DNA of 64,000 bases from contig KK106981.1 in assembly GCA_000611775.1 (NCBI GenBank), forward strand, positions 10,600,280 through 10,664,279, given 5' to 3'. Below, in pieces: positions 1,241-30,467 of the stretch (its first letter is position 1; the number at the start of each line of letters is the position of its first letter). The notes under the pieces were generated by a model. That model was not told the DNA's origin. It worked only from the letters and a program-made list of their open reading frames with translations, and ran no database searches. The position numbers were made by a program, and so were the translations under genes. Source of the DNA: Umbilicaria muhlenbergii (taxonomy: Eukaryota > Ascomycota > Lecanoromycetes > Umbilicariales > Umbilicariaceae).

Positions 1241-1249
1241 GAATTTCAA

Positions 1250-2150: not shown

Positions 2151-2189
2151 TCTGAGAAGACAAAGGGAATATGACTGACATCCTGAAAG

Positions 2190-3640
2190 ATGAATGAATG
2201 AAGATACTGCTACTAGACAATTGATGAGAGCTTTACAAGCCTGAACAAGCCAAAGTTTACTCACTAGGCGTGAAAGATCATGAGCTTGTCAATGAAGCTT
2301 TCAATAAGCTGCATGAGCAAGGCTGTATGACATGAACAACTCAGTCTACCTCATTTACTTACCCTTGTTTTGTAGTCTGAAAGACTACTTCAAATGAATG
2401 AAAAGGCCATGTTGTTGTTGACATTTAAGCGCTAAACTGAATAATCATGCCTGACGCTTATTCAGTCCTTAATCAGGCAGACATCCTCACTGCTGTATAA
2501 GAGGTGAACTATATATTCACTGTGAATTGTGCCTCCTTTTTCTATCAGTGAAGAGTTAAACCTCAGGATCATCACAAGCTTACTGTCTTTTCTCATCAAG
2601 GTCAAGAAACATTCAACATCACTGTCATGAGTTATAGAAACTCCTCAGCTTATGTTCAGTGAATGATTGACTGAATCTTATGTTCACATCATGATTTCTT
2701 CAAAACTTATGTTGATGACATCATTATTTACACTAAGTCCTGCTCACTACCTGATCACATAGGACATCTAGACCTGGTTTTCAAATCCTTGACAGAAAAA
2801 GACATATGTCTGTCTCTGAAGAAGTCTTTCCTTGACTATTTCACAGTTCAACTGCTTGATCAGCGTGTTGACGCTCTAGAACTCATCACCACTGAAGATA
2901 AGTTAATCATCATAATCAATATTGAATTCCCATGCACACTTTCCGCCCTAGAGAAATACCTAGGCATGACGGGCTACCTAAGGCAGTACATATCATATTA
3001 TGCTGTCATCATAAAACTGCTGCAGGAATGAAAGACAAGGCTAAATCATGACTTATAGAAAGTCTGAGCAGAATGAAAACCAGCTGACAGAAAAAACATT
3101 GAGGGCAACATGTGCAAAGTTATGATCAGCAGGACCCCTATTGAGGAACTTACCTCTTTTAAGTTAAACAGCTTTCATCAGCTGCAAAGCCTCTTCTTTA
3201 AACTGATCATACTGATTCATTATGACCTGAAGCGTCAACTCTATGCTGACATGAACACCTCAAAAGAGTTCAGCTTCAGAGCTCATGTCTATCACATGAA
3301 GGAAAGCCATGATTTCATCACAACCTCAGGTCAGAAGAGCATGAAATTGATACTTTTCCTTAATAAGGCTCTAGCTAACACTGAGACCTGCTACTGATCA
3401 ACAGAACTCAAAGTCACAGGCCTTGTATGATTAGTATGAAAGATTCATCACATGCTGAAATCTGCAGAAAAGCCTATTATCATTTATATCAATCATTTCA
3501 TCACTTTAAACATTATTCATCAGTTCAGCCTGACCTCAACCACCTTCATAGATAAGATGAATCTACAGTTAGTTCACATCAGTGAATACCTATAAAGGTT
3601 CCGCCTTGATGTTCAGCATAAAGCAGGCAAGATGAATGTT
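2190..3640 (+). pseudogene. gypsy 1 reverse transcriptase and RNase H region
   Basis: Reverse transcriptase core followed by RNase H. The polymerase box TYVDDIIIYT lies at about 2705-2734, preceded by a segment corresponding to the AYVQRMIDRIL region in which both Arg positions read TGA. Longer open pieces cover 2789-3031 and 3110-3397. The RNase H part follows to about 3640 (YINHF, VQHKAGKMNVVLNTLSQ near its end, the usual connection to integrase). Nonsense codons are mostly TGA. Inactive. Confidence 0.8.
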
Positions 3641-3889
3641 GTTCTGAACACCTTATCTCAACTAATCAGCTCAAGCACCTCAGACCCTCATGATCAGTCA
3701 CTTGATAATTTAACAGTTGATGCCCTCATTGCTGACATTCAGTCACGTCTAGTGAATTGAGCGGCTTGATTGAAGCCAAAAGAAGAGGTCTTCAAGGATG
3801 TTCTCATCTATGCAGTCAGCCTGATTGAAATGAATGAAGCCTTTCAGACCAGACTCCTTGAGGCTTATGAGGATGAACCATGATGAGAC

Positions 3890-5437
3890 TGTATTCAAAA
3901 GATGATATCAGACAATAACATCTTAAAGGAAAACACTGCAAGGCTTTCCTATCACTTAATTCAAAAGCTCATCTACTTCAATGATCCTGAACAAGGCCTT
4001 CATCTATGTATTCCTGAAGATCTAGTCAAGGAAGTCTTTCAGCTAACTCATGATGAGTTGAGACACTCAGGATATGCCTGTATGCATGAATGTTTAACAC
4101 AAGGCCTCTACATTCACAACTTATTGAAACAACTACATGAGTTCATTAGATTCTGCCCTCAATGCCAGTTAAATCAGACACCGCGGCACGCTCCTTATGA
4201 ATCAATGCAGTTGATACTCTCTTCATCATGACCCTTTCACATCATAACTCTTGATTTCATCCTAGGACTCTTGACCTCAGTTGAAGGTTTTGATGCTGTC
4301 ATGTCAGTAACTGACAAGTTTAGCAAGGCAGTCATGTTCATCCCTGATAAGTTCACATGAGGAGGAAAGGAATGAGCAATTCATTTACTTTTTAAGCTAG
4401 ATTTACTAGGATGAGGTCTACTGAGTGCTATCATTTCAGACTGTGACATCCGCTTTGTAGCAGGTTTATGAAGAGTGATATTTGAACACCTTCATGTTGA
4501 ATTATTCTACTCTACCACTTACCACCCACAAATCAATGGCGCCTTCAAAGTCATTAATCAGCAAGCTGAAATCACCTTACACTACTACCTCATGATGATG
4601 AACAGATTAGCTGAGTGGCTCATGATTCTTTCATGACTGCAAGCCGCGTCAAATAACACATATTAGTCATCAACCTGCCAGACTCTGAATGAGGTGCTTT
4701 ATGACTTTCAACTGAGAGAAGCGCTCAACCTGCTTCAAACAAACATCTTTACTGAGCATAACCTTGGTCCTGTCACAACTGTTGAAGCTCACTCAACTGA
4801 TGAAGAATGTTCAACAGAACATGTGAGACTCTGAGAAGATTAAAAAAAAGACCTTCTAGCTATCATGTTCAGTTATCATCTGAGTCATATAAACACCAAA
4901 GACGCTATCACCTGAGCAGTCATGCAAGCAAAGTTCTATTATGACATGAATCAACAGCCCTGATTCTTCACCATTGAAGATGAAGTTCTATTACGCCTAC
5001 ATCACGGTTATAAGCTTCCAGGAATAATGAACAAGAAACTAAAATGACAGTTTGTCAGATCATTCAAGGTTACTGAATGAATAAAACACCTTGCTTATCA
5101 CCTAAACTTACCCCCTGCCTGAAAAATCCATGATGTAATCTTCATAGCTCATCTAGAATCAGTGAGTATGAATGACCTCTACAATCAACCTCAACCTACA
5201 CACCCCCCTTCAATAACAGTAGACGGCGCTGATGATCATTATGAAATCAAATGATTACTTTGAAAGTGAGTAAGCTGCTGAGATCATGATTATACCACTG
5301 AATACCTGATATGATGAAAGAGTTATGAATCAGAGTTTGACATCTGATATAACGTGAAGGATTTGAGAGAGGCGGAGGAGTTAATCAAGGATTATGAGAA
5401 GCATTTAACAAGAGAGCAAGAAGCAGTACTGCTTTAA
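3890..5437 (+). pseudogene. gypsy 1 integrase and chromodomain region
   Basis: Integrase with the HHCC zinc domain (HDELRHSGYACMH, then FCPQC) inside the open piece 3902-4231, the catalytic core (LDFILGL near 4253, ISDCDIRF near 4435, and an E about 35 residues after the second D), a GPF/LPPAW-type C-terminal region near 5110, and a chromodomain near 5280-5430 ending in the stop at 5435-5437. Trp positions of the chromodomain and of the AWRIH-type motif read TGA. Broken; no product expected. Confidence 0.8.
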
Positions 5438-5639
5438 TCATCAAGATGATGACTTTTCTTTGTTGATGACAGAATGTTACAGTTATATCATGACTTCACT
5501 CTTTAATCACCTGTTTAAGTCATTGCCTGTTTAGGCTTAACTTAATTTAACTCATATATAGCAGGCTTCTACACTACTAGAAGAAAAACAACCTTCTCAC
5601 AAATGAACATACAAAATACATCTTACAGATCAGTTCTGA

Positions 5640-7794
5640 CAAGTGTTAAGAAAGTACAATCTTTTTAAACTTTGCAAACTTCTATAAAAAGTTTATCAAG
5701 AAATATTCTAAAATTGCAGCACCTTTAACAGAGTTGATGAAGAAAGACTGAAAATTTGTTTAATCTACTGAAGCACAAAAATCCTTTAAAGAGCTGAAGA
5801 AGCACTTCACATCATAATTAATTCTCATGAGTTTCAACCCTGAGAAGCTTATTATGCTTGAGACAGATGCATCAGACAGAGCTATAAAAGCATGCATTAA
5901 TCAATCAGATGATAAGAGACATCTGAGATCAATAATTTACTACTCATGAAAGCTTTTAGGTACTGAACAGAGTTACAAGATACATGACAAGAAGCTGTTA
6001 ATTATTATCAACACATTTAAGCAATGATGTGTATATCTTGAAGAATCAAAGCATGAGGTTCAGATATATTCAGATCATAAGAATCTGTTATACTTTACAA
6101 CAACAAAAATCTTAAATCAGAGACAGGTTCATTGATCAGAAGAATTATCACAGTACAACTTCAAAATTCATTATCAAAAGGAATCAGAGAACATCAAAGT
6201 AAATGCTTTCAGCAAATGAGCTGATTATCTGTAAAAGAAATCAGTTGTGAATCAAGTTATTCTTCAGAAGGATGAGCAAGGTAAGATAATTTACAATCAA
6301 GAAATCAACTTTATGATAAAAGTTGAAGACAACATTTTTGAGAAACAAGTTCAAAAAGTGTTGAAGAATGACAAGTTAGCACAACAGATTCTTCAGAATA
6401 TTAATGATCATGAAAGCTTTAAAGAGCAAGAAGGCCTCTTACTCTTTCAAGGTTTAATTTATGTCTCAGTCAGCTTGAGAAAAGCACTGATAGAAGAAAG
6501 TCATTTCAGCAAAATGAATGATCATCAAGGAATCAACAAAACAGTGAAATGACTCACTAAAATGTATTATTTCCCATGCATGAGGAAAAAAGTCAAAGAG
6601 ATCATTCAAAAATGTGACACATGTCAAAAAAACAAAGCTGAGTGACATAAATCATATGAATTGTTGAAGTCATCATCAACATCATCATGATCATGATCAA
6701 GCATCACATTGAACTTCATAGTAAAGTTATCACAGTCAAAGGAATCACTGATGAAAATGTTTTACAACATGATCCTTATAATAACAGATCAACTTATGAA
6801 GTATGAATACTTCATACCTTATAAGAAATCATCATCAGCAGAAGAATTAACATACATGTTTTTAAAAATCATAACAGTCAATCATGAGCTGCTGAAAGAA
6901 ATAATCTCAGACAGAGATAAACTCTTCACTTTTAAGTTTTAAAAATCATTAGTGAATCAATTAAGGATTCATCATAAACTGTTCACAGCATATCATCCTC
7001 AGATGAACAGGCAGACTGAATGATTAAATCAAATGTTGAAACAGTACTTGCGCTGCTATGTTAATTATCAACAAATCAATTGAGTAGAACTCTTACTGAT
7101 AGCTCAGTTAACTTATAACACAGTGACAACAGAATTCATGAAGGTATCATCATTTTACATTAATTACAGATTCAACTCACCTATGAATGAAGTGAGAAGG
7201 CTGAAAGTCATAACACAGAAAGTAAAAGTATAAGTGAAATGACTGAAGGACCTTCATAAGGAACTACAATAAGATATAAAATTTACCTCAGAAAGATCAA
7301 CAGTATATTATAATAAGAAATGAGATAAGGGATCTACTCTTGAAGAGAGAGATAAAGTATACCTTCTACAACACAACATCAAGACAATATGATCAAGCAA
7401 CAAATTGAATCACAAGAAGTTAAAACCTTTTCAGATTGTGAAGAAGAAAGAAAGTGTCAATTATGAACTTGAACTTTCATCATTCATGCAGATACACTCA
7501 GTATTTCACATATTTCTACTTGAATCAGCAGACCTGAAAACACTGTTATAGATGAATTCATCAGAAATCAACCTGAAGAGTCAAGATGCTGAGTTTAAGA
7601 TAGAGAAAATCTTAAATCAACAGGAAGTTAATGAAGAACTTTGTTACTTAATCAAGTGAAAAGGGTACAACACAGCAGGAAACACATGAGAATCAGAAGA
7701 AAATCTTACTCATTGTGCAGTGAAGTTACATCAGTTTCAACAACAGAACCTGAACCTCAGAGGTCATTCAACACTGAGAAGTCAAAAAGTTTAA
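5640..7794 (+). pseudogene. gypsy 2 RNase H-integrase-chromodomain
   Basis: RNase H with ETDASDRAIKACI near 5853 and [10 protein letters not shown] near 6070; integrase zinc domain (HFSKMNDHQG, then KCDTCQKNK at about 6500-6640); core with ITDQLMKYEYFIPYKK near 6785, ISDRDKLF near 6907 and the AYHPQMNRQTEWLNQ-type region near 6990 (Trp read as TGA); chromodomain LIKWKGYNTAGNTWE near 7650-7690 (again with TGA at Trp). Longest open pieces are 6247-6552, 6709-6942. Related to the Skippy/MAGGY type of fungal elements by layout; inactive. Confidence 0.8.
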
Positions 7795-8070
7795 AAGTAG
7801 TGTTTAAAGTTGAAGCCTTCACTTGCTTGCTCTCCTCCACCTTCAACTCTTCAATGTTCACAAACTCATGAGAGATGAAGTCTTTCTGACAGTGTTGCAA
7901 CAGTCTTTTCTGTTTGCACAAATGAACTAACTTAACTGACGCCTCAGCAATTATTTCCTCAGCAGCAGAAGTCTTTTCCTTCAGAGAAGTCAGTTCAACT
8001 TTCACCTTTTCTCAGTCAGCACTACTAAAAGAAAGGTCACAGGACTTCTCAGTCTGAATATAAATGATAC
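7757..8070 (-). pseudogene. antisense coiled-coil ORF between pol and 3' LTR of gypsy 2
   Basis: On the strand opposite to pol, an ORF of 82 codons from Met (8005 to 7757) reads through a Leu/Lys/Glu-rich heptad-like segment with LTSLKEKTSAAEEII near its start and EELKVEESKQVKAS near its end; it overlaps the last codons of pol tail to tail. Upstream of that Met the same frame continues to about 8070 with one TGA where the sequence suggests Trp (SSADxEK). I recall similar antisense coiled-coil ORFs beside fungal gypsy elements, but the function is unknown and this copy is probably dead. Confidence 0.5.
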
Positions 8071-8258
8071 ACTTTTTAAAATCATCACTCACATGATAAT
8101 TTTTCACATCATCAACGCATCACCTACATGATCACATGATGAAAGAAGTGAGGTTGAGCCTGTGAAGAAGGTTATGATGTCATTGAGAGAAGTTCAGTTT
8201 CTTTTGCACTCAAGAAGAAGGCATGAAGATGTTTAAGTTTTTGAGGATGAAAACCTTG

Positions 8259-8267
8259 AGGGGGGAG
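8259..8267 (+). other. polypurine tract of gypsy 2
   Basis: A run of purines (GAGGGGGGAG region) ends four bases before the TGTTA that opens the 3' LTR. This is the usual place of the plus-strand primer of an LTR retrotransposon. Confidence 0.75.
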
Positions 8268-8271
8268 CTAG

Positions 8272-8577
8272 TGTTAAGGCTCCCGCACTATAGTACTAGC
8301 AAAGTACACAGTGTGAGTGTACATGTGATACTGCTCACCTTGCTCACCTTGCTCACCTGTCAAGCACGGTGAGCATGAAGTGTTACACCATGTTGCTCAC
8401 CTTGCTCATCATGATGAGCATGATGAGCACACTGAGCACATGAGTCTCCTATAGTCTATATAACCACAGGTAGATCCATAGTTAGGAGCTCATGCTCAAC
8501 TCATGTATTGAATGCAATCTCTTAAGTCTATGACTACTAGTTCCCTCACTTTGGTCTTAACCCTAAAGGTCGTTACA
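8272..8577 (+). repeat. 3' LTR of gypsy 2
   Basis: Begins TGTTAAGGC directly after the polypurine tract and ends at GTTACA, giving TG...CA ends and 306 bp. It holds three to four short tandem copies of TTGCTCACC (about 8333-8361) and a TATATAA-like box near 8456, which would fit an LTR promoter. The matching 5' LTR is not in the window, so the right boundary is inferred from the terminal CA only. Confidence 0.7.
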
Positions 8578-8585
8578 TGATCACG

Positions 8586-8640
8586 ATAGTTCATTGAACC
8601 TTGTCTAGTTCATTGAACCATACCTATAGTTCATTGAACG
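8586..8640 (+). repeat. three tandem copies of TAGTTCATTGAAC, ~20-bp spacing
   Basis: TAGTTCATTGAAC occurs three times in 55 bp immediately after the LTR, with variable spacers of about 7 bp. The core is nearly self-complementary (GTTCATTGAAC), so each copy could act as a dimer-binding site, but no function is shown. Confidence 0.7.
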
Positions 8641-8873
8641 ATAGTATCACTCCGGTCACTACGACACCACCCGTTACAACCACCAGGTTTTGCAACAACA
8701 TAACATCAAATGATCTCTCTGCAATTCAGGCAGTACAACTGCTTTTCAAATATTGTAATCATAACTTCAAGCTCTATGAATCTCAATGCCATACCAAACG
8801 TAGCTAATTCAAAAAGATCCCAATTTCCAGCGCAAGCCATTTGCGCAGCAGAAACCCCCACACGCCACATCCC

Positions 8874-10800
8874 TCACACAGGAAAGGTACCTTGCACAAC
8901 AGTATTCGTATTAGTATCAAACACCAACTGCATCCCCGGCTCAATAGTCGGTTGATTAAACGAAAACTGCCTCAATTGATCCGCTACACCCCAAAAACCA
9001 GCCCGTTAGCAACCACCTCCACAAAGCCAAGAAAATGGAGAGACGAACCGGTCCTAGACTGCGTCCCCACAGTCGCCGACTTCCCATTAAAGCTAACCTG
9101 ATAGTACCGGAACGTCACCACGCCCGGAACATTCTCCAAGTAAGTCATCGTGAAATGGTAGTATTCCGTGTGCCGGTCATAGGTTGCGGTACTGTAGGCG
9201 CTGGTATAGAACTCGAAGACGAGCTCGCGGGTGCCGATGGCGCCGTTGATCTGGTAGTAGATGCCTTGTTGAGTGCCTTGGTAGATGTAAAGGTCATCCC
9301 ACAGCGCGCACACGGACGTGTCGGGTAGCGAGTACTCTGGAGTTGATTGGCCTAAGCCGTCGGTGCCGACGAAGCCTACTGCGACTGAGAGCTGGGAGTT
9401 GGTGTACGAGGCTTCCCGGGTGCCCACGACGGAGATGAACTATCAAGGAGAAGTTGAAGTCAGCCAAGGGTATACTTGTAGGACGTAATTTAGAAGCTAC
9501 TCACTCCATTTACGCTGAGCTAGATGTTCTAGCTGCTTTGACCATATATGGTAACTGGGAAGGGAAGGGTGAGAGCGTAGTGTTGGTCATCGTAGTTGCT
9601 AGGGGAGCCGTTGATATCACCTACAATGGCCGTCGGAGAGCTCAGTACCACCCTCGGAACAGTCAATGTTGCGCTAACAGTCGTAGTCGTCGAAGCAGTC
9701 GCCACAATCGTCGTCACCGTGGTATATGCAGCTGGCCCGTCGACTGTGACGGTCGAGGTCACTGTGATACCTTGTCCGCCACCGACGGTAGTAACCACAA
9801 CAGCAGTGCCCCCGGCAACCGTACTTGCTCCGCGAGCGGTATAAGTGTTGCAGTCGAGATGGCTGACGTTCGGGCTACAAAGATATCAGCACTGTTGGAG
9901 ATGATTCTTAGCTTAACGAGAATCCCTTACTTATGGCTCCAGTTGCGACGCAAGTACTGTTGAGATGGATCAGCAATCTTGAAAACGCATGAAGTGAACA
10001 CTTGAAGAGAACTAACCATGCAGCGAATACCCTTGCTAGAGTCCAATTTTTAACAGCGGTTGGGGTCGAAAAGGTTCGCTTCTGAAGGGCAGCCTTTTCA
10101 GGAGCAAACTCATTGATTTCGACGACTTCGATTTCGTTGGGAGCTAAGTCCCTCTTTTCCGGACCGCCAGCGGCAGTGACGGTTGCGATATAGGTAGTCG
10201 TAGTCGAAACGTCCGCTATTCAGAGTAAGCATTGCCATATTAGAGCTGGAGGACAAAGAGACGAGGCATGCTTCGTGGCAGAGAATAATTCGAATTGAGT
10301 AGGAAGGGCAAACTTACTCGATGTTCTAATATGACTCTTTAGCCCACAGTCACGTATAATGTAGCCCGCAAGCATTGAAAGGATACTTACTCGGATACAT
10401 ATACAGTCGAGGTAACGGCTGCACCTACGAATGTAGCGGTCACTGTAGTTGTTCCTGTACACACCAAGAATAAGGTTAGCAATCCACCAAGTAAAGTGCA
10501 GGCCTAGCGCTAGCACTGCGCTGCGTAAAGATTTTATGAAATTCGTACCCGCAACTGTGACAGTAGAGACAACGGTGGTTGATCCCAGGGTGGTGGTTGC
10601 GGTATAGATCTGGTAATCACCGCACTATTAGGATCTAATGGACCTCTGACGATGGTCATCAACTTAGAACTCACGGTAGTCTTGTCGCTGTATACTTTGG
10701 TCGCCGTTCTAGCTACACCAACCGTGGTAGTAGAGGGGGTATAGGAAATGTAAGAGGAGCAGAAGCTGCCTCCGTTCGAGGCGCTCTTGCGTACTGCAAC
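8874..10800 (-). pseudogene. S/T-rich surface protein gene with C-terminal beta-rich domain, interrupted
   Basis: A multi-exon gene on the - strand. Supported exons: about 10790-10680 (FCSSYISYTPSTTTV), 10609-10549, 10454-10391, 10215-10031 (contains KR dibasic sites), 9956-9931, 9874-9505, 9439-9049 and 8983-8874 (stop TGA). Introns at 9504-9440 and 9048-8984 have good donor, branch (GCTAAC) and acceptor sites and keep the frame. The middle is Thr/Val/Ser-rich (cell-wall or GPI-protein style); the end is a domain with LPFPVTIYG, WDDLYIYQGTQQGIYYQ and VTFRYYQVS, which I recall from fungal surface proteins. Two TAG codons (9531-9529 and 9522-9520) interrupt an otherwise conserved strand of that domain. 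The first exon and signal peptide were not found; one upstream junction does not keep phase. Confidence 0.6.
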
Positions 10801-10809
10801 ATCAGTTGA

Positions 10810-12790
10810 TGCTGCTGAGCATAGGCCTCAGGATCATAGAGCCAGTAAGGTGGAGCAAGGTCTGTTACAAGGAGATACTAACTAGAGCTCCGCGAAGGGC
10901 AGTCGGTAGCCTCTGGAGCACACTAAGTGAGAGAGACATCTCTTTCGTAAGGATGGTTCTCCAAAGGCGCACGTTGCGTATAGGAGTCGAAAAGGCCTAC
11001 GAGGAGGAGGAAGCCCTTCATTGTTGCTGCGATTTCCTTAGAGTAATATACCAGTCCACTTCCTCAGGGCGAATGTCGAGAATGTGAGTCGAGTAACAAA
11101 ACAGGCGGATGTGGTCGATTTAAATGTATACAGTATGCCTTGAGGCACTCCCGAAGATTCGTAACAAGAAGTACGGATCGAAGGGGCCTTGCCTTCAGCT
11201 GGCCGTCCACGTGAGCCACCATTGTTATGTCTTTCATTTTTTGGCGTCCAAAAGAGTAGCTAAAAGAGCACGTCTCGAAGCCCGAGCTGAACACAAGAGT
11301 AAGATGTCTGCAGTTTATCCTGTTTCTCCGGCAAGATTAATGAAGTCAAGCAACTTGGCAATACTTGGAATGTGAATCTACAATATGTCGGATAAGGCGA
11401 AGGAGAGGTCTCGCTGTTACCTGAGTCTTGAGTAGCGAAGCAGCCATGCTTAAAAAAGGCAAGCCGGACTTCCGCTTCGACAGGCGGGCCATGATGCCAA
11501 GTGCCAAGTCGATGCGCCTCGATCCTCGGACTTCTCGAAAGGGGTACATTTTCCACCATAACCGAATACCAGCCGAATGCCAACGTTGACGGCTTACATT
11601 TAAAAGCGCATAAACCTTGATGGAATCAAGAGAAGACTAAGAATTAGTATCCGACCCAACCCAAACATGGGGTTAAAGGTTGAAAAGGTATCTGACGGGG
11701 CTCGAGGCGATCTCCCGAGAGCCCCCGGTGACTCCACGTGTGGCCTAGGTGTAAGGTAGTTAGCTGAAATCGTGCAAAGTCGTTTCCCTGGGCGAGTGCG
11801 CAAAGCCACGATATTAGGTAAGAAAGGCCCGTCTAGACCAAGCCCCAGGTTTCCGCCAACTGCTAGGTTTGAGAGTGTAAATGTGTATGCGAAGGCCTTC
11901 TAATATCGACGTGCCCATTCGGACAGGTCATGCTGCCAGGGTTTACTGTCTGCTGTGCGGTCAATCGTGCAGGCTGGCGCCGTTTCTGTTCGTTAGATCA
12001 GTAACTTGAATTGCAAAGAGCGTTCTAGAGACGTACTGGAGACATTGGGGGAGCTCCATGGACAGACTACAAGGCGTCGGAGGTACTTCCGTAGCACAAC
12101 AGCAAAGCCTTGGACTCTAGAAACAGTCCAACAGACTGGCAACGCTTTACTTGGTCACTCAATGTGTCACACAGACGACCCAAAAGGCTTTGCGCATCGT
12201 TACTAGAATAAAGTACAAATTCGCTTGGTGGAGATTGCTCACATCCAGGTATAATGCGTACAGTACAGTGAAACCAATTGACCAAAGGAGACGGAAGAAA
12301 ATGCCACAAAGAGGCTGATGGTACAAAACAGCAGCCCAAACCCATAATACAATACATCGCAAAGTAAGTCGCAACACAAGGATATAAAGACACCGCTATG
12401 CAAAGATTGGTGGTACAAACGCCCGCCCGGGTCCCAAACGCCTCGAGATCGCCATGTCCGTGTAGATGCTCTCAAATGTTGATGTTGTCGATGTTGCAGT
12501 AATTCATGAGGAAGTTTTCTAAAGAAAGATGTCGGTTTGAATTCGTGTCAAGTTGTAGAGTAAGCGTACCAGTCGCAGCGGCCGACAAACTCCCCGCATT
12601 TCTGTAGCTGGGAATGTTCTATCGCCGGCCTATATATGTAGCGAGCCTTCTTGCCAGGTATTTGAGCGATCCTCGGATGGTACCGATCCCGTACCCGTCA
12701 TCTCTCCCATGAGTCTCAACTGCAGGGTCTGTGCCTCTAGAGGACCATATCGGTCAATGGCCGACCAAGAACGATGGTAAGACGAGCTCA
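10810..12790. other. no gene recognised
   Basis: About 2 kb between the S/T-rich gene and the repeat gene. Short open frames occur on both strands, none with a recognisable domain or convincing splice pattern. It may hold the missing 5' exon of the S/T-rich gene (- strand, towards 10.8-11.4 kb), but I could not place it. Confidence 0.4.
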
Positions 12791-12792
12791 AC

Positions 12793-15700
12793 TTACGGAC
12801 GTTCCCACCTAGGGACAGTGCTTGTTGCCGTTACAGCATCCAGTGATTCCTGGCTGCCCGAGCAATCATTGAAGCCTGTAGATTCACAAGGATTTTTGAT
12901 ATGGTCCCTTGGGGGGATATGCATTCTGGGCTCGTTGACCTGATCTCTGCGAGGAATATGCATTCTTGGCTCGTTGTCATCATCTCTCGGGGGAATATAC
13001 ATCCTTGGCTTATCGACATGTTCCCTAGATATATGCATTCGTGGTTCGTTGGTATCATCTCTCGGAGGAATATGCATCCTTGGCTCATCGACATGATCCG
13101 TTCGAGGTATATGCATTCTTGGTTCGTTGGTGTCATCTCTCGGAGGAATATGCATCCTTGGCTCATCGACATGATCCGTTCGAGGTATATGCATTCTTGG
13201 TTCGTTGGTGTCATCTCTCGGAGGAATATGCATCCTTGGCTCATCGACATGATCCGTTCGAGGTATATGCATTCTTGGTTCGTTGGTGTCATCTCTCGGA
13301 GGAATATGCATCCTTGGCTCATCGACATGATCCGTTCGAGGTATATGCATTCTTGGTTCGTTGGTGTCATCTCTCGGAGGAATATGCATCCTTGGCTCAT
13401 CGACATGATCCGTTCGAGGTATATGCATTCTTGGTTCGTTGGTGTCATCTCTCGGAGGAATATGCATCCTTGGCTCGTTGACATGATCTCTCGGAGGAGG
13501 GATGTACATTCTGGGCTCGTTGATAGCATCCCTTGGAGGAATGTGCATCCTCCGACTGTTGACATGATCTCTTGGAGGAGGGATGTACATTCTGGGTTCG
13601 TTGACATCATCTCTCGGTGGAATATACATCCTTGGCTCATCAACATGATCCCTTCGAGGTATATGCATTTTTGGTGCGTTGCTGTCATCTCTCGGAGGGA
13701 TATGCATCCTTGGACTGTTGATATGGTCTTTCGGAGGAGGGATGTACATTCTGGGCTCGTTGATAGCATCCCTTGGAGGAATGTGCATCCTCCGACTGTT
13801 GACATGATCTCTTGGAGGAGGGATGTACATTCTGGGTTCGTTGACATCATCTCTCGGTGGAATATACATCCTTGGCTCATCAACATGATCCCTTCGAGGT
13901 ATATGCATTTTTGGTGCGTTGCTGTCATCTCTCGGAGGGATATGCATCCTTGGACTGTTGATATGGTCTTTCGGAGGAGGGATGTACATTCTGGGCTCGT
14001 TGATAGCATCCCTTGGAGGAATGTGCATCCTCCGACTGTTGACATGATCTCTTGGAGGAGGGATGTACATTCTGGGTTCGTTGACATCATCTCTCGGTGG
14101 AATATACATCCTTGGCTCATCAACATGATCCCTTCGAGGTATATGCATTTTTGGTGCGTTGCTGTCATCTCTCGGAGGGATATGCATCCTTGGACTGTTG
14201 ATATGGTCTTTCGGAGGAGGGATGTACATTCTGGGCTCGTTGATAGCATCCCTTGGAGGAATGTGCATCCTCCGACTGTTGACATGATCTCTTGGAGGAG
14301 GGATGTACATTCTGGGTTCGTTGACATCATCTCTCGGTGGAATATACATCCTTGGCTCATCAACATGATCCCTTCGAGGTATATGCATTTTTGGTGCGTT
14401 GCTGTCATCTCTCGGAGGGATATGCATCCTTGGACTGTTGATATGGTCTTTCGGAGGAGGGATGTACATTCTGGGCTCGTTGATAGCATCCCTTGGAGGA
14501 ATGTGCATCCTCCGACTGTTGACATGATCTCTTGGAGGAGGGATGTACATTCTGGGTTCGTTGACATCATCTCTCGGTGGAATATACATCCTTGGCTCAT
14601 CAACATGATCCCTTCGAGGTATATGCATTTTTGGTGCGTTGCTGTCATCTCTCGGAGGGATATGCATCCTTGGACTGTTGATATGGTCTTTCGGAGGAGG
14701 GATGTACATTCTGGGCTCGTTGATAGCATCCCTTGGAGGAATGTGCATCCTCCGACTGTTGACATGATCTCTTGGAGGAGGGATGTACATTCTGGGTTCG
14801 TTGACATCATCTCTCGGTGGAATATACATCCTTGGCTCATCAACATGATCCCTTCGAGGTATATGCATTTTTGGTGCGTTGCTGTCATCTCTCGGAGGGA
14901 TATGCATCCTTGGACTGTTGATATGGTCTTTCGGAGGAGGGATGTACATTCTGGGCTCGTTGATAGCATCCCTTGGAGGAATGTGCATCCTCCGACTGTT
15001 GACATGATCTCTTGGAGGAGGGATGTACATTCTGGGTTCGTTGACATCATCTCTCGGTGGAATATACATCCTTGGCTCATCAACATGATCCCTTCGAGGT
15101 ATATGCATTTTTGGTGCGTTGCTGTCATCTCTCGGAGGGATATGCATCCTTGGACTGTTGATATGGTCTTTCGGAGGAGGGATGTACATTCTGGGCTCGT
15201 TGATAGCATCCCTTGGAGGAATGTGCATCCTCCGACTGTTGACATGATCTCTTGGAGGAGGGATGTACATTCTGGGTTCGTTGACATCATCTCTCGGTGG
15301 AATATACATCCTTGGCTCATCAACATGATCCCTTCGAGGTATATGCATTTTTGGTGCGTTGCTGTCATCTCTCGGAGGGATATGCATCCTTGGACTGTTG
15401 ATATGGTCTTTCGGAGGAGGGATGTACATTCTGGGCTCGTTGATAGCATCCCTTGGAGGAATGTGCATCCTCCGACTGTTGACATGATCTCTTGGAGGAG
15501 GGATGTACATTCTGGGTTCGTTGACATCATCTCTCGGTGGAATATACATCCTTGGCTCATCAACATGATCCCTTCGAGGTATATGCATTTTTGGTGCGTT
15601 GCTGTCATCTCTCGGAGGGATATGCATCCTTGGACTGTTGATATGGTCTTTCGGAGGAGGGATGTACATTCTGGGCTCGTTGATAGCATCCCTTGGAGGA

Positions 15701-18129
15701 ATGTGCATCCTCCGACTGTTGACATGATCTCTTGGAGGAGGGATGTACATTCTGGGTTCGTTGACATCATCTCTCGGTGGAATATACATCCTTGGCTCAT
15801 CAACATGATCCCTTCGAGGTATATGCATTTTTGGTGCGTTGCTGTCATCTCTCGGAGGGATATGCATCCTTGGACTGTTGATATGGTCTTTCGGAGGAGG
15901 GATGTACATTCTGGGCTCGTTGATAGCATCCCTTGGAGGAATGTGCATCCTCCGACTGTTGACATGATCTCTTGGAGGAGGGATGTACATTCTGGGTTCG
16001 TTGACATCATCTCTCGGTGGAATATACATCCTTGGCTCATCAACATGATCCCTTCGAGGTATATGCATTTTTGGTGCGTTGCTGTCATCTCTCGGAGGGA
16101 TATGCATCCTTGGACTGTTGATATGGTCTTTCGGAGGAGGGATGTACATTCTGGGCTCGTTGATAGCATCCCTTGGAGGAATGTGCATCCTCCGACTGTT
16201 GACATGATCTCTTGGAGGAGGGATGTACATTCTGGGTTCGTTGACATCATCTCTCGGTGGAATATACATCCTTGGCTCATCAACATGATCCCTTCGAGGT
16301 ATATGCATTTTTGGTGCGTTGCTGTCATCTCTCGGAGGGATATGCATCCTTGGACTGTTGATATGGTCTTTCGGAGGAGGGATGTACATTCTGGGCTCGT
16401 TGATAGCATCCCTTGGAGGAATGTGCATCCTCCGACTGTTGACATGATCTCTTGGAGGAGGGATGTACATTCTGGGTTCGTTGACATCATCTCTCGGTGG
16501 AATATACATCCTTGGCTCATCAACATGATCCCTTCGAGGTATATGCATTTTTGGTGCGTTGCTGTCATCTCTCGGAGGGATATGCATCCTTGGACTGTTG
16601 ATATGGTCTTTCGGAGGAGGGATGTACATTCTGGGCTCGTTGATAGCATCCCTTGGAGGAATGTGCATCCTCCGACTGTTGACATGATCTCTTGGAGGAG
16701 GGATGTACATTCTGGGTTCGTTGACATCATCTCTCGGTGGAATATACATCCTTGGCTCATCAACATGATCCCTTCGAGGTATATGCATTTTTGGTGCGTT
16801 GCTGTCATCTCTCGGAGGGATATGCATCCTTGGACTGTTGATATGGTCTTTCGGAGGAGGGATGTACATTCTGGGCTCGTTGATAGCATCCCTTGGAGGA
16901 ATGTGCATCCTCCGACTGTTGACATGATCTCTTGGAGGAGGGATGTACATTCTGGGTTCGTTGACATCATCTCTCGGTGGAATATACATCCTTGGCTCAT
17001 CAACATGATCCCTTCGAGGTATATGCATTTTTGGTGCGTTGCTGTCATCTCTCGGAGGGATATGCATCCTTGGACTGTTGATATGGTCTTTCGGAGGAGG
17101 GATGTACATTCTGGGCTCGTTGATAGCATCCCTTGGAGGAATGTGCATCCTCCGACTGTTGACATGATCTCTTGGAGGAGGGATGTACATTCTGGGTTCG
17201 TTGACATCATCTCTCGGTGGAATATACATCCTTGGCTCATCAACATGATCCCTTCGAGGTATATGCATTTTTGGTGCGTTGCTGTCATCTCTCGGAGGGA
17301 TATGCATCCTTGGACTGTTGATATGGTCTTTCGGAGGAGGGATGTACATTCTGGGCTCGTTGATAGCATCCCTTGGAGGAATGTGCATCCTCCGACTGTT
17401 GACATGATCTCTTGGAGGAGGGATGTACATTCTGGGTTCGTTGACATCATCTCTCGGTGGAATATACATCCTTGGCTCATCAACATGATCCCTTCGAGGT
17501 ATATGCATTTTTGGTGCGTTGCTGTCATCTCTCGGAGGGATATGCATCCTTGGACTGTTGATATGGTCTTTCGGAGGAGGGATGTACATTCTGGGCTCGT
17601 TGATAGCATCCCTTGGAGGAATGTGCATCCTCCGACTGTTGACATGATCTCTTGGAGGAGGGATGTACATTCTGGGTTCGTTGACATCATCTCTCGGTGG
17701 AATATACATCCTTGGCTCATCAACATGATCCCTTCGAGGTATATGCATTTTTGGTGCGTTGCTGTCATCTCTCGGAGGGATATGCATCCTTGGACTGTTG
17801 ATATGGTCTTTCGGAGGAGGGATGTACATTCTGGGCTCGTTGATAGCATCCCTTGGAGGAATGTGCATCCTCCGACTGTTGACATGATCTCTTGGAGGAG
17901 GGATGTACATTCTGGGTTCGTTGACATCATCTCTCGGTGGAATATACATCCTTGGCTCATCAACATGATCCCTTCGAGGTATATGCATTTTTGGTGCGTT
18001 GCTGTCATCTCTCGGAGGGATATGCATCCTTGGACTGTTGATATGGTCTTTCGGAGGAGGGATGTACATTCTGGGCTCGTTGATAGCATCCCTTGGAGGA
18101 ATAGCCACCCCGGTATTGTTTTTGAGCAT
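12793..18129 (-). CDS. giant Pro/Arg/Met/His repeat protein (~1,778 aa)
   Basis: A single open frame of 1,778 codons. After a short N-terminus (MLKNNTGVAIPPRDAINE) it is built of 13-14-residue motifs with the core P-R-M-(H/Y)-I-P-P followed by R-D and a variable D/H-x-N/D-E pair. Six motifs make an 80-residue unit repeated 19 times, then a 26-residue unit repeated five times, then a non-repetitive tail with SGSQESLDAV. Two other frames are also open simply because one unit lacks stops there. This frame is preferred because the six sub-repeats differ mostly at third positions: Ile is ATC/ATT/ATA, Pro CCT/CCA/CCG, Arg AGA/AGG, while Met is fixed. No signal peptide or membrane segment. The stop lies inside a perfect donor (GTAAGT from 12796), so the gene may splice onward; the frame is also open upstream to about 18177. 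Function unknown. Confidence 0.6.
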   Translation of the reverse strand: MLKNNTGVAIPPRDAINEPRMYIPPPKDHINSPRMHIPPRDDSNAPKMHIPRRDHVDEPRMYIPPRDDVNEPRMYIPPPRDHVNSRRMHIPPRDAINEPRMYIPPPKDHINSPRMHIPPRDDSNAPKMHIPRRDHVDEPRMYIPPRDDVNEPRMYIPPPRDHVNSRRMHIPPRDAINEPRMYIPPPKDHINSPRMHIPPRDDSNAPKMHIPRRDHVDEPRMYIPPRDDVNEPRMYIPPPRDHVNSRRMHIPPRDAINEPRMYIPPPKDHINSPRMHIPPRDDSNAPKMHIPRRDHVDEPRMYIPPRDDVNEPRMYIPPPRDHVNSRRMHIPPRDAINEPRMYIPPPKDHINSPRMHIPPRDDSNAPKMHIPRRDHVDEPRMYIPPRDDVNEPRMYIPPPRDHVNSRRMHIPPRDAINEPRMYIPPPKDHINSPRMHIPPRDDSNAPKMHIPRRDHVDEPRMYIPPRDDVNEPRMYIPPPRDHVNSRRMHIPPRDAINEPRMYIPPPKDHINSPRMHIPPRDDSNAPKMHIPRRDHVDEPRMYIPPRDDVNEPRMYIPPPRDHVNSRRMHIPPRDAINEPRMYIPPPKDHINSPRMHIPPRDDSNAPKMHIPRRDHVDEPRMYIPPRDDVNEPRMYIPPPRDHVNSRRMHIPPRDAINEPRMYIPPPKDHINSPRMHIPPRDDSNAPKMHIPRRDHVDEPRMYIPPRDDVNEPRMYIPPPRDHVNSRRMHIPPRDAINEPRMYIPPPKDHINSPRMHIPPRDDSNAPKMHIPRRDHVDEPRMYIPPRDDVNEPRMYIPPPRDHVNSRRMHIPPRDAINEPRMYIPPPKDHINSPRMHIPPRDDSNAPKMHIPRRDHVDEPRMYIPPRDDVNEPRMYIPPPRDHVNSRRMHIPPRDAINEPRMYIPPPKDHINSPRMHIPPRDDSNAPKMHIPRRDHVDEPRMYIPPRDDVNEPRMYIPPPRDHVNSRRMHIPPRDAINEPRMYIPPPKDHINSPRMHIPPRDDSNAPKMHIPRRDHVDEPRMYIPPRDDVNEPRMYIPPPRDHVNSRRMHIPPRDAINEPRMYIPPPKDHINSPRMHIPPRDDSNAPKMHIPRRDHVDEPRMYIPPRDDVNEPRMYIPPPRDHVNSRRMHIPPRDAINEPRMYIPPPKDHINSPRMHIPPRDDSNAPKMHIPRRDHVDEPRMYIPPRDDVNEPRMYIPPPRDHVNSRRMHIPPRDAINEPRMYIPPPKDHINSPRMHIPPRDDSNAPKMHIPRRDHVDEPRMYIPPRDDVNEPRMYIPPPRDHVNSRRMHIPPRDAINEPRMYIPPPKDHINSPRMHIPPRDDSNAPKMHIPRRDHVDEPRMYIPPRDDVNEPRMYIPPPRDHVNSRRMHIPPRDAINEPRMYIPPPKDHINSPRMHIPPRDDSNAPKMHIPRRDHVDEPRMYIPPRDDVNEPRMYIPPPRDHVNSRRMHIPPRDAINEPRMYIPPPKDHINSPRMHIPPRDDSNAPKMHIPRRDHVDEPRMYIPPRDDVNEPRMYIPPPRDHVNSRRMHIPPRDAINEPRMYIPPPRDHVNEPRMHIPPRDDTNEPRMHIPRTDHVDEPRMHIPPRDDTNEPRMHIPRTDHVDEPRMHIPPRDDTNEPRMHIPRTDHVDEPRMHIPPRDDTNEPRMHIPRTDHVDEPRMHIPPRDDTNEPRMHIPRTDHVDEPRMHIPPRDDTNEPRMHISREHVDKPRMYIPPRDDDNEPRMHIPRRDQVNEPRMHIPPRDHIKNPCESTGFNDCSGSQESLDAVTATSTVPRWERP
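13072..13461 (-). repeat. 78-bp tandem repeat, 5 copies
   Basis: Five consecutive 78-bp units starting at 13072, 13150, 13228, 13306 and 13384 appear identical; a partial diverging unit follows at 13462. Each encodes two 13-residue motifs (DDTNEPRMHIPRT and DHVDEPRMHIPPR) near the C-terminal end of the repeat protein. 78 is a multiple of 3, so copy number can change without breaking the frame. Confidence 0.95.
13501..18102 (-). repeat. 240-bp tandem repeat, 19 full copies plus a 42-bp partial
   Basis: Units start every 240 bp from 13501 to 17821, with a partial unit at 18061-18102. By eye all 19 are identical. Each holds six diverged sub-repeats of 39 or 42 bp (encoding 13 or 14 residues). 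Identity between units together with divergence inside a unit points to recent expansion or homogenisation of a composite unit. Confidence 0.97.
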
Positions 18130-18179
18130 TTTTCGAGCATATGCACGTTTTAATACTGTTTTGGTAAGACGGAGTTCTT

Positions 18180-19440
18180 AGTGGCCTTAAGTACGCGTCT
18201 CTGTTTTGATGACAGGGTATGGAACCAATAGCAATTTGGCTCAGTTGCTAGCGTAGTTCAGTGACTGAGCATACTTAGGTTTTGAGCAAATGCGCACGGG
18301 TGTACGGTAACTGTAAACGGCAGTGTAAGTGGTTTTGGAACAGGGAAACGCGTACTAAAACTCTGACCAACTGTATCTGTCTTAAAGCGTACATATGTTC
18401 AAAAAACATGACCAGGGTGGCTAAATCCCTCTATTGGTCGGCCCTCAGGTACGAATGGTCCAGCCTTACCTTTACAGCACGCCTCAGGCTGGACCTTCCC
18501 ACAATAGTCCTGACCACCAGACAAAGACGCTGAAACGGGTCGGCGCAAGCAGGGACGTCCAGCCTAATGGGCGAGCTAGCCAAACCGCTCGTCGCGCTCA
18601 GCGGGCCAGATAGCGTACTCGGTATCATTCCGTCCGCAAGCGCTGCTGGGGGTAGAACCGGCTGCCGACTCCTCCTCCACGGGCGGGAGAGAAAGGAAAC
18701 GACAAGGTTGGCGGGCTAGGTAAGATTACTATTCTCCCGCTCTCCTACTCTCTCGCCCCTCCCGCCGCCCCCGCACAACCGCCAGCTACAGCCTCCCGAC
18801 TGCTCGAGCCGATCTACGGGCGTCACAACTCGTACCTGACCTCCCCGGCCGCATGATGCAAGAGATCGCGAGGGGGGTCGGGGTCGGGGGTTATAGCGCT
18901 GAGGGAGAGGGGGGTGGGGGGACACTGGATGAGGTGGTGGAGGTTGTCACGGGTGGGCAGATGGGAGTGTATGGAAGGGGGGTGTGGTTGGTTCATGTGG
19001 AGGGGTTTTGGGATGAGGTGGTGGGGTTTGTGAGGGAGGGGGGAGCGGGTGCTGGGTGAGAGGGGGAAGGCGGGGGAGTGTGTAGAGTGGTTGAGGGAGA
19101 GGGGGGTTGCGGGTCGGGGAGGGGGCTGGGTTTGAAGGAGGGGTTCGAAGGAGGGGTTGAAGGAGGGGTTTAAAGGAAGGGGAGGAGAAGGGTTGGGGGA
19201 GTAGATGTGATGGTTGTGGATGTGGAAGTGGTGAGCTGGTGTTCAATAGGGTTGTGTGAAAGGAGAATCTGCCTCGTCGTGCGAGTGAGGAATGATGTGA
19301 TATATCACAGGGAGTGTCTTTGAATTCTACTATCTGGAAGGACCTGCTCACGCGCAGAAGGCGACAAAACAACGCGGTACACAGAAACCCTAAGCAGGCT
19401 TTCAGGCAGCTCCAAACAGTCGCCGTAGAAGAACCTCCAC
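18180..19440. other. intergenic, G-rich low-complexity stretch
   Basis: No gene recognised. From about 18860 to 19200 the + strand is extremely G-rich (runs of GGGG separated by T, A or GA), with short imperfect repeats of GGAGGGGTT near 19137-19175. Frames through it are low-complexity and not credible as proteins. It could form G-quadruplexes, which is inference only. Confidence 0.7.
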
Positions 19441-26728: not shown

Positions 26729-27295
26729 CCGGGCATGACTCTGTGCTGGATTGTTAGGGGTGTGGTGCTCGAGGAATGGATACCAAGGCGGTTGAAAATC
26801 GGTGTACAGGTCATAACGGCGGCTTGGCGGCCGAACAAGCTTGCAAGATGGGTAGTAAGTAGCACACCGAGGTCCCGCTACTCTGCTCCTTGACGCATCA
26901 GCAAGGAAGAAGCGGGAGAGTATGGCATGGAGGGCATGAAACACCAGGAGATGCAAGTCACCAAGAAGGCCTGTCACATTTACAATTGCTGCACCAGCCT
27001 TCAATGCAGATAGATACCATATGCAAAAGAACGTTCCATCTGTTCAATAATGAAGCTAGGGATGCTATGCTATGCTGTGACTCTGTAACAATATCTGTAA
27101 CATTTTCTATGCTCTTACCTCTAAACGACTTCAGCCCTACAAGCCCACTTCCGAACTCGTCTCGTGATTACGTGTGGATGTTCGTGTCATGGCACAAGCC
27201 TCGCTCTTAAACCGCACACCACTCATCTTTAACCCTTGCAACCAACCGCCAATGTCTGGTGATGGCTTTTGAATTGTGTTACAACCGCATATGAC
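26729..27295. other. intergenic region LSM2 / PSO2
   Basis: About 570 bp with the 3' region of LSM2 and the promoter of the next gene on the same strand. No coding or repeat structure recognised. Confidence 0.6.
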
Positions 27296-30067
27296 ATGTT
27301 CCGCAAGCCTCGAGAAGAGGCTGTCTCGATCAGCACCACGCCCCTCAAACCATCCACTGGCCGCCCGCCTACACCTCCATCCTCCTCAAGCGGGGCTCCA
27401 CCCCGGAAGTCAAACATTACCCAATCAACGATGGCAAGCTCTCCAGTGCCAATATTAGGCAGGTCCCAGACTGTCCCCAGGACTAAGGCTCGGAATGTCG
27501 GCAGTCCTTCGATTCAAAAGACGAAGGGCAAGGCGAATGGCAGTATTTTGAATTTCTTCAAGAAGGCAGAGCCGGGATTCCTTCTAGGCAATTCGGGCAA
27601 GGACAATTGGGAGAGCTTGTTTATTGAAGATGATGAGATCAAGGAAGGGGTCACTTCAGGCATACAAGGCCCAACGCCACCGCGGGATTCCTCTACCCCA
27701 CCGAAGAGTAATGGTGGCTCACCGCTCGACAAAGATGCTACGCGCTACAATGAGGACACTGGGTCAATGAAACGAAGACGCCTAAATGATACTGTGAAGG
27801 AGGAACCACGATCGCCTCTGCCTTGGGACGCCGAGCCTCCGAACCTACCAAATGAATCTTCCCCTGCTATGGAAAAGACTCCTCTTCCGCCTACAGACAT
27901 TGTCCCTCCTCAGCTGCAGGCCGTGAAAAGGGCAGGACCGTTCATCGAGGATTCAGATAGCGAGGACGAGGTGCTTAGAGAGCTCTCTAAAGGGGTTTTT
28001 GGTGCACTAGCGCGACCTTCAGGTTCGCATTCGCCAGTGACTGTTGGGCACCCAAACAGCCAAGAGGAGTTAGAGAAACCAACTACGGAAGAATCGCCGC
28101 CTATTCCGGCGTTGAAACGAGAAGCAACGAGCATTATTGGTGGAGATGGTTTCGATGGCTTCGAGGACTTTATCGATGACGAATTTCCTGAAGATGGCGA
28201 AGAATATATAGAACGACGCTGGATGGAGGAACAAAGGCAGCTAGAGCTAGGCCTGGAAGAAGGGGAGGAGGACGGGGCTCTGGACGAGGCTATAAAGGAC
28301 GAGGAGGGATTGACACTGGGATTGAGTTTGCATGAAGCGGAAGATTCAACATGTCCCATCTGTAGCGCAAGTTTCGCAGGTCTTAGTGATCAGGAAGCCT
28401 CTGTACACGTTAACGGCTGCTTGGATGGCAAGCCCATCCCGCTTCCGAATCGCAAGTCTGCAGTCAAGGCCGATCCTGCAGTGAAACAAGAAAATGGAGG
28501 CGTTTCGGCCAAGCGTTTTCAGCGATCAGCTATAGCAAGACCTGGGCAAGAAAATCCGTTCTCTCTCGGCGCATCTACTCCCAATTCTTCGTCGGCTTTC
28601 TCAAAGCTCATGTCGTCACATGCTGAGGACGAGGCCTGGGCTACCGCAGCAGCTTCTGAGATGGCAGCCCGTGGAAAGCCAGCCTATCAGCGGACCTGTC
28701 CTTTCTACAAGATCTTGCCGGGCTTCTTCATCTGCGTCGATGCTTTCCGGTATGGTGCTGTCGAGGGCTGCAAAGCCTACTTCTTGAGTCACTTCCACAG
28801 CGACCACTACATTGGACTTACGTCTTCCTGGTGTCATGGACCGATCTACTGCAGTCGCGTCACCGCGAATCTAGTGAGACAGCAACTTCGTGTCGACCCA
28901 AAGTGGGTGTTCGATCTAGAATTTGACCGCAAAATCGAAGTACCGGGAACGCAAGGTGTGGAAGTCACTATGATACCTGCGAACCATTGTCCGGGGAGCT
29001 CTCTCTATCTCTTCGAGAAGATCGTTGGCAGAGGCAAGAATCCCAAGAAGCAGCGAGTGCTTCACTGCGGCGATTTTCGGGCTTGTCCGGCACATGTGCA
29101 ACACCCTCTTATCCGCCCTGATGTCATCGATGCTGTCACCGGTAAGCAAACAGGCCAACAGAAGCTCGACGTCTGCTACCTTGACACAACTTACCTTACA
29201 CCGAAATATGCATTCCCCAGCCAAGAAGAGGTCATTAAAGCATGCGCCGACATGTGTGTCAGCTTAAGCAAAGAGCGAGTCGACGAGAACGACAACTGGG
29301 AACAAACCAAAAAAGAGCGCGCCGGTAGCGGCATGGTCAAGTTCGTCCGCAAGGCTTCCGACCTAATCAAAGAAGAGCAAAACGCCGACGACGACAACAT
29401 CGACGCCATGAAAGTCAACCTCAAACCCGGCACCAAACCCCGCGGCCGCCTCCTCGTCATCGTCGGCACCTACAGCATCGGCAAAGAGCGCATCTGCCTC
29501 GGCGTCGCCCGCGCCCTCGGCAGCAAAATCTACGCCCCGCCCTCGAAGCAGAAAATCTGCGCCGCCCTCGAAGACCCCGAACTCTCCTCCCTGCTGACGG
29601 CGAACCCGCTCGAAGCCCAGGTGCACATGCAGATGCTGATGGAAATCCGCGCCGAAACCCTCGCCGACTATCTCACGGGTTACAAGCCGCATTTCAGCCG
29701 CATCGTCGGGTTTCGCCCCTCGGGGTGGAATTACCGCCCGCCTAATAGCCGGTTTGTCGAATCCCCGGCCGTGCAGACGGTGCTGCATTCGGAGAACTGG
29801 AAGAGTCGGTATAGTATGGCGGAGCTAGTGCCCCAGCGGGGGAGCACGCGCGAGGCGAGTTGTTTCGGCGTGCCGTATAGTGAGCATTCGAGTTTCAGGG
29901 AACTGACGATGTTTTGCTGCGCGCTGCGGATTGACAAGATCATCCCGACGGTTAATGTGGGGAGCGCGAAGAGTCGGGAGAAGATGAAGGGGTGGTGCGA
30001 GAAGTGGGTGGGGGAGAAAAAGAAGAATGGGTTGTTTAGGGTTGCGGATGGGCAGACGAGTTGGTAG
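27296..30067 (+). CDS. PSO2: DNA crosslink repair metallo-beta-lactamase/beta-CASP nuclease
   Basis: Single-exon gene; from ATG 27296 it encodes 923 residues. Pso2/Snm1 is a nuclear 5' exonuclease needed for interstrand crosslink repair. Seen in order: a PIP-box-like NGSILNFFKK near residue 80; a disordered acidic region; a UBZ4-type zinc finger (CPICSASF...HVNGC, near residues 352-375); the metallo-beta-lactamase domain with the metal motif HFHSDHYIGL near residue 498, PANHCPGSSLYLFE and HCGDFRACP; and the beta-CASP/DRMBL part with YLDTTYLTPKYAFP, GTYSIGKERICLGVA, GFRPSGWNY and VPYSEHSSFREL. All metal ligands expected for the family appear present. The start at 27296 is the first ATG in frame; upstream codons in the frame begin only with TTG. 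Base composition at third positions shifts strongly to G/C after about 29350. Confidence 0.95.
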   Translation: MFRKPREEAVSISTTPLKPSTGRPPTPPSSSSGAPPRKSNITQSTMASSPVPILGRSQTVPRTKARNVGSPSIQKTKGKANGSILNFFKKAEPGFLLGNSGKDNWESLFIEDDEIKEGVTSGIQGPTPPRDSSTPPKSNGGSPLDKDATRYNEDTGSMKRRRLNDTVKEEPRSPLPWDAEPPNLPNESSPAMEKTPLPPTDIVPPQLQAVKRAGPFIEDSDSEDEVLRELSKGVFGALARPSGSHSPVTVGHPNSQEELEKPTTEESPPIPALKREATSIIGGDGFDGFEDFIDDEFPEDGEEYIERRWMEEQRQLELGLEEGEEDGALDEAIKDEEGLTLGLSLHEAEDSTCPICSASFAGLSDQEASVHVNGCLDGKPIPLPNRKSAVKADPAVKQENGGVSAKRFQRSAIARPGQENPFSLGASTPNSSSAFSKLMSSHAEDEAWATAAASEMAARGKPAYQRTCPFYKILPGFFICVDAFRYGAVEGCKAYFLSHFHSDHYIGLTSSWCHGPIYCSRVTANLVRQQLRVDPKWVFDLEFDRKIEVPGTQGVEVTMIPANHCPGSSLYLFEKIVGRGKNPKKQRVLHCGDFRACPAHVQHPLIRPDVIDAVTGKQTGQQKLDVCYLDTTYLTPKYAFPSQEEVIKACADMCVSLSKERVDENDNWEQTKKERAGSGMVKFVRKASDLIKEEQNADDDNIDAMKVNLKPGTKPRGRLLVIVGTYSIGKERICLGVARALGSKIYAPPSKQKICAALEDPELSSLLTANPLEAQVHMQMLMEIRAETLADYLTGYKPHFSRIVGFRPSGWNYRPPNSRFVESPAVQTVLHSENWKSRYSMAELVPQRGSTREASCFGVPYSEHSSFRELTMFCCALRIDKIIPTVNVGSAKSREKMKGWCEKWVGEKKKNGLFRVADGQTSW

Positions 30068-30310
30068 GGGTGGGGGTTCGCGGGTCGGAATCTGAAGCAG
30101 TTTGCATGTGGGGTTGGGCGTTACATGATAGTGGTTCTTGCGAGGCTTGCGGACCTGCAGTCCAAGGGACAATAAGCCCTAGTTCTGATCTTGAACGAAC
30201 TTGGTTCGTCTGTATATCACTCTTAGCTCATATGTCCAGGCTGCAGCACCAGTAAGCGGCGCAAGTCTCAGATAGGGAGACACGCTTGATTGGGAGGTGC
30301 CCCTACAAAT
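30068..30310. other. 3' flank of PSO2
   Basis: Short non-coding stretch ending at the inverted-repeat element. Nothing recognised. Confidence 0.5.
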
Positions 30311-30467
30311 CACGTGCAAACGCGGTACCTATTAAATTTAGTAGGTACCGCATTTACACGTGACTGCTAACCACGTGCAAACGCGGTACCTATTAAAATT
30401 AGTAGGTACCGCATTTACACGTGACTGCTAACCACGTGCAAATGCGGTGCCTATTAAATTTAATACC
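30311..30467. repeat. tandem array of perfect-stem hairpins, 61-bp period
   Basis: Two full units (30311-30362 and 30372-30423) and a third, half unit (30433-30467). Each full unit is itself an inverted repeat: 21-bp arms, two transitions between arms, 10-nt AT loop. The arms equal the terminal inverted repeat of the element, so the left end carries the terminus several times over, in alternating orientation. Each unit starts and ends with the palindrome CACGTG. Confidence 0.9.

Follow-up and report, generated by a model that had tools for sequence, protein, structure and literature searches.

The window, as we call the whole 64,000-nucleotide stretch of DNA analysed here, contains a − strand open reading frame (ORF) of 1,778 residues (12793-18129) that runs through a long tandem array, which raises the question of whether this array belongs to a gene and, if so, where that gene begins and what its product might do. 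We favour, at a probability of roughly 0.7, a single gene for a secreted repeat protein that has been split by misassembly or rearrangement. Judged from the sequence, the window seems to hold the back part of this gene, comprising the repeat region and 3′ end, and the front part seems to lie at the end of another contig.

The repeat array and its reading frame

The array and its 3′ edge consist of the following parts:
12793-12895, − strand: unique 3′ tail of the array ORF
12896-13054, − strand: 3′ margin of the array, made up of the diverged sub-repeats K-N (TRF; sub-repeat cutting)
13055-13476, − strand: second exact block, period 78 bp, 5.4 copies, sub-repeats H and I (exact periodicity)
13491-18102, − strand: 240-bp unit of 80 codons and six sub-repeats, 19.2 exact copies (exact periodicity; TRF)

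The 240-bp period is exact, with 0 mismatches over 4612 bp, and all full units counted from 13501 are identical (19/19), the next unit being different; TRF reported 20.8 copies at 98% over 13114-18102 and placed the beginning of the whole array at 12896. The sequence-only reading, which had described 19 identical 240-bp repeats from 13501 onward, was correct about the identity of the full units, but the exact block starts at 13491, and the second exact block and the array start at 12896 need to be added to its bounds. By searching for M[HY]I, we cut the ORF into 130 sub-repeats of 12-14 residues with 14 distinct DNA forms, arranged as (ABCDEF)x19, G, (HI)x5, J, K, L, M, N, their lengths of 36, 39 or 42 bp all being whole codons. 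Because the cuts were made at M[HY]I, the Met that heads every sub-repeat, previously described as fixed, follows by construction; the longest piece has 14 residues, and therefore no Met-less sub-repeat was skipped.

The ratio pN/pS (Nei-Gojobori proportions, 14 distinct sub-repeats, 36 ungapped columns) was 0.25 in the frame of the ORF, 1.27 and 2.34 in the two other − strand frames, and 0.93, 0.41 and 2.22 in the frames of the opposite strand; these values describe a pattern and carry no probability, because sub-repeat pairs are not independent. Pairwise differences among the 14 forms amounted to 252, 174 and 538 at the first, second and third codon positions, and the six sub-repeats within a unit showed 179 differences, of which 98 fell at the third position (40 at the first and 41 at the second). 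Three database relatives, P0002, P0003 and P0004 (3 of 42 candidates), carry the motif behind a common leader, P0004 being FRX48_06524 of Lasallia pustulata, and NEPRM[YH]IPP occurs repeatedly in each of them as well as in the window. The strand and frame assigned from sequence alone, the third-position divergence within a unit and the long conservation of the 13-residue motif were thereby all borne out. The same holds for the treatment of the other frames as by-products: the array contains further long open frames of 1771 aa (−) and 1750 aa (+), and the purifying pattern is weaker or absent in them (0.41-2.34 across the five other frames).

If the array were non-coding satellite DNA whose frames happen to be open, this could explain why three frames are open over its entire length. 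We find this hardly credible, as the strongest purifying pattern is confined to one frame, the sub-repeats have whole-codon lengths, and the motif follows a common leader in three other proteins. The array looks protein-coding on the − strand. Its translation contains 22% Pro, 15% Arg, 12% Asp, 8% His and 7.5% Met, with Ser and Thr together at 4%, and the ORF includes 39 RR pairs, two per unit, spaced 34 and 46 residues apart.

The window also holds a 61-bp repeat of 2.5 copies with nested inverted repeats containing CACGTG and GGTACC (30310-30465), and a 12-bp minisatellite, CCTGCCTCTCCG, with higher-order units of 64 and 128 bp and several open frames (31120-31733). Retrotransposon remnants lie at 36019-37866 and 47032-47613 on the − strand, Pol_BBD being found in two of three ORFs tested, and a similar ORF outside that test lies at 45632-46135. 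Further ORFs encode a DNA-repair metallo-beta-lactamase domain (DRMBL; 27269-30067) and an AAA ATPase spread across two overlapping frames, through an intron or a frameshift (49848-51195).

The start of the frame and a complementary 5′ end

At its upstream edge, the array meets a dispersed element, and a second locus, near the start of contig C7, carries what the window seems to lack:
18102-18103, no strand: junction at which the array breaks off within a sub-repeat and the element within its terminal repeat; the two share 1 base
18103-18129, − strand: first nine codons of the 1,778-aa ORF, with its ATG, all of them element sequence (ORF and element alignment)
18103-18433, + strand: dispersed short element with terminal inverted repeats TAGAGGGATTTAGCC...GGCTAAATCCCTCTA (genome matches; copy alignment)
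C7:4547-5210: probable 5′ end of the gene, with upstream region, signal-peptide-like leader, diverged first repeat and 2.2 units

With both terminal inverted repeats and many dispersed copies, the element is a short inverted-repeat transposon (MITE-like); it gave 10 long genome matches including that in the window, with short partial matches at four more places, and 10 copies were aligned. At the array junction it lacks its outer 10 nt. The protein of 1,778 residues proposed from the sequence alone thus starts in a dispersed element and is probably not a natural product. No signal peptide had been visible in it, and indeed the highest 15-residue hydropathy of the window ORF is −0.17, because the ORF begins in the inserted element and a start with a hydrophobic leader lies on contig C7. 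An automatic gene model of 1,778 aa, without a signal peptide and with 19 identical units, would therefore mislead: its start is that of a dispersed element, its perfect units are possibly the assembler's consensus, and it lacks the likely leader, which a different contig carries.

A genome search found the unit at one other place only, near the start of C7 (4651-5210). The C7 frame from the ATG at 4547 begins MYSFTIFSGLSGLVTALAISHLAVAAPVQPQD, a leader resembling those of P0002-P0004, and continues through a diverged repeat into 2.2 units identical to those of the window. The highest 15-residue hydropathy of the leader is 1.75-2.21 in the C7 frame and P0002-P0004, and a leader search of the genome found this single leader (25 of 25 candidates scored). 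Between the element and the leader, C7:234-4546 (4.3 kb) has only two distant matches, of 66-67%. On C7 the array breaks off within a unit, where it adjoins satellite DNA that is itself cut inside its own repeat and has at least 115 genome matches (40 of 46 candidates scored). All eight other satellite copies compared (8/8) share the bases preceding the cut, and therefore the cut at the C7 array is no element border. As observations on the surrounding sequence, a DUF7924 ORF lies upstream of the C7 gene half (L009 799-2199), and a satellite with a 333-bp unit occurs at L009 5308-6308, at C1:10519824-10524041 and near several contig ends, in tandem in places.

C7 starts inside a copy of the element that shows 0 differences over 217 bases from the window's copy, and two letters within the element are common to these two copies alone among the 10 aligned. 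Since loci L024 and L026, on different contigs, also show 0 element differences, identity is no proof of the same copy; C7 may nevertheless start inside the very copy found in the window. On the simplest reading, about C7:1-5210 (or 234-5210) may belong between window positions 18102 and 18103.

One split gene or two loci

At 18102/18103 the assembly most likely broke at the repeat; a real rearrangement is less likely. The assembly analysed has 7 contigs and 34,788,950 bases, and a search of it for (TTAGGG)4 found none; according to PMC3999499, the U. muehlenbergii draft has 7 scaffolds and 34,812,353 bp and was built from Illumina HiSeq2000 reads with ALLPATHS-LG and SSPACE. If our assembly derives from Illumina short reads, the copy number, the perfect identity and both junctions become uncertain, because short reads could hardly count exact 240-bp units. 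The repeat number may then be an assembly effect and, in such a draft, the perfect unit identity may be the assembler's consensus, which makes it unsafe to say, as the sequence-only reading had, that the unit expanded very recently.

Both junctions are continuous sequence without N, as is the window, and among the loci examined only L033 has N (1389). For this reason, a real rearrangement, or a duplicated block that was broken twice, is possible. In the latter case both loci would be genuine and no intact gene would be left: after duplication of a block, a deletion reaching to the element would have removed the 5′ end of the C1 copy, and the C7 copy would have lost its 3′ end to the satellite. 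Neither piece has both gene ends, which agrees with this. A single transposon family is present on the far side of each half (window 8681-5648 and C7:9913-17735, ~85% identical), its order and orientation towards the gene being alike in the two places. A duplicated block would show this pattern, but the family is also widespread in the genome, with at least 75 matches. The scenario further draws on P0004, whose tail has no match in the genome (in a search without positive control). It would, however, need a duplication and two losses that by chance leave complementary halves, and neither the unique C7:234-4546 nor the window's 10000-12895 has a close second copy. We therefore judge two real loci unlikely, both in the duplication and in the losses assigned to each copy, and retain the single split gene. 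The transposon-like region of the window itself (5600-8700) is low in G+C, and its genome matches, counted including itself, are mostly 81-90% identical where they are longer (40 of 442 candidates scored).

The 3′ end bears on the same question. Within the tail, ESTGFNDCSGSQES resembles the P0004 tail (10 of 14 residues; the search, restricted to the window, gave E 0.096), a donor-like GTAAGT overlaps the stop near 12797, and the 3′ flank (10000-12895) was found once in the genome. Because the window and P0004 do not align past these 14 residues, and the rest of the P0004 tail has no match in the genome (again without positive control), the 3′ end of the gene may be decayed. The end of P0002, SLSAAAIGTL, is like the window's frame text near 12.6 kb by eye, a likeness that was not counted, and a P0004 match on C3 (E 0.05) was taken as chance, since an ORF of 741 aa with low-complexity repeats occupies the other strand there.

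Proposed function and comparison with known systems

The proposed single gene would encode a secreted, proline-rich, probably disordered or unfolded tandem-repeat protein, probably of an Umbilicariaceae lichen fungus. Its signal-peptide-like leader is the reason to expect export, after which the repeated module N-E-P-R-M-[YH]-I-P-P would form a multivalent scaffold, extracellular or in the wall or matrix; to this scaffold role we give near-even odds. The array length would shift through unequal exchange by whole steps of 80 or 26 codons, so the reading frame would be kept.

In Pfam, no family matched a stretch of the window ORF or the C7 frame on its own; YIF1 (PF03878) exceeded the cut-off with the whole window ORF (99.2 bits) and with the C7 frame (34.1 bits), but no single stretch of either did so by itself, and we read this match as a repeat artefact. 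Pfam gave no match in P0002 and P0004 and two matches below the cut-off in P0003, and NCBIfam showed nothing notable for P0004, P0002 and the C7 frame. AlphaFold2 modelled P0004 with a mean pLDDT of 40.1, and the best hit of a PDB sequence search with the P0004 tail had E 0.3. That the tail is an M35 (aspzincin) peptidase was not established: Pfam gave no match, HExxH was not seen in P0004, comparison with the one M35 ORF of the genome gave a BLASTP E of 0.90 with 337 of 1000 shuffles reaching the alignment score, and hhalign gave a probability of 1.3% (P 0.04). As queries, P0001 returned none of 700 candidates at E <= 0.001, and P0004 returned itself and P0002 only, among 7991 candidates scored.

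The main functional rival to the scaffold keeps the single gene and makes its product a peptide precursor. On its way through the secretory pathway, this precursor would be cleaved at Pro-Arg and Arg-Arg, behind the Arg, and would yield numerous short peptides, for example MYIPPRDDVNEPR, as Kex2-processed repeat proteins (KEPs) do. A leader followed by tandem repeats suits such a precursor, as does Pro-Arg, which occurs in all three relatives at least six times each. Kex2 may cleave after Pro-Arg, but the literature consulted did not confirm this, which counts against the proposal. Also against it, P0002 and P0004 have no KR, RR, KK or RK, and P0003 has one KR, near its end and outside the repeats; of the five genome matches to UstYa (DUF3328) genes, none is on C7 and the nearest is ~1.37 Mb away on C1. 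The RR spacing per unit agrees with the numerical rule published in PMC7329392, where the survey lists Umbilicaria under one type, G-7, possibly for another protein. On balance, we regard peptide release as unlikely. In a narrower form, a precursor specific to lichen fungi would be processed at single Pro-Arg sites, in place of dibasic ones, and release a peptide of 13-14 residues in ~100 or more copies. The peptide would be directed at the algal partner as a signal or coat whose dosage is tunable, the array length differing among strains. This form strikes us as rather improbable.

None of the titles that our literature search returned described this gene, and the search returned no papers on proline-rich secreted tandem-repeat proteins of lichen mycobionts or on Lasallia pustulata FRX48 genes. 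If the fungus is indeed U. muehlenbergii, the locus would represent a secreted repeat protein of narrow distribution in a lichen fungus that is open to transformation and in which symbiosis genes are sought (PMC3999499).

Several known systems resemble this gene in part. Fungal wall adhesins have Ser/Thr-rich tandem-repeat stalks and, in the GPI type, a GPI-anchor signal at the C-terminus. They share in-frame tandem repeats and probable secretion with this gene; unlike them, the array is not Ser/Thr-rich (Ser+Thr 4%), and the Pfam matches of the scanned proteins include no adhesin domain. The composition of the repeats does not favour a GPI-type wall adhesin or the adhesive character suggested from the sequence alone. 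A dikaritin/ustiloxin-type RiPP is likewise not supported, there being no UstYa gene close by.

KEPs, as defined in PMC7329392, have a signal peptide and at least three repeats of at least eight residues between KR, KK, RK or RR. The window array, with RR twice per unit, shows this repeat arrangement, which P0002, P0003 and P0004 do not; the window ORF has no signal peptide, and a hydrophobic leader is present at C7:4547 and in P0002-P0004, as judged by hydropathy. Like the KEPs, the proposed gene combines a leader with tandem repeats; unlike them, the relatives have repeats without dibasic sites, the common site is Pro-Arg, and no UstYa gene is near. The relatives differ from the window array in having far fewer repeats and no dibasic site within them, and P0004 in a cysteine-bearing tail of 130 residues. 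They share with this gene a leader beginning with MY, then AP and NEPRM[YH]IPP repeats, after which GCSDSQ follows in P0002 and P0004 and DCSGSQ in the window.
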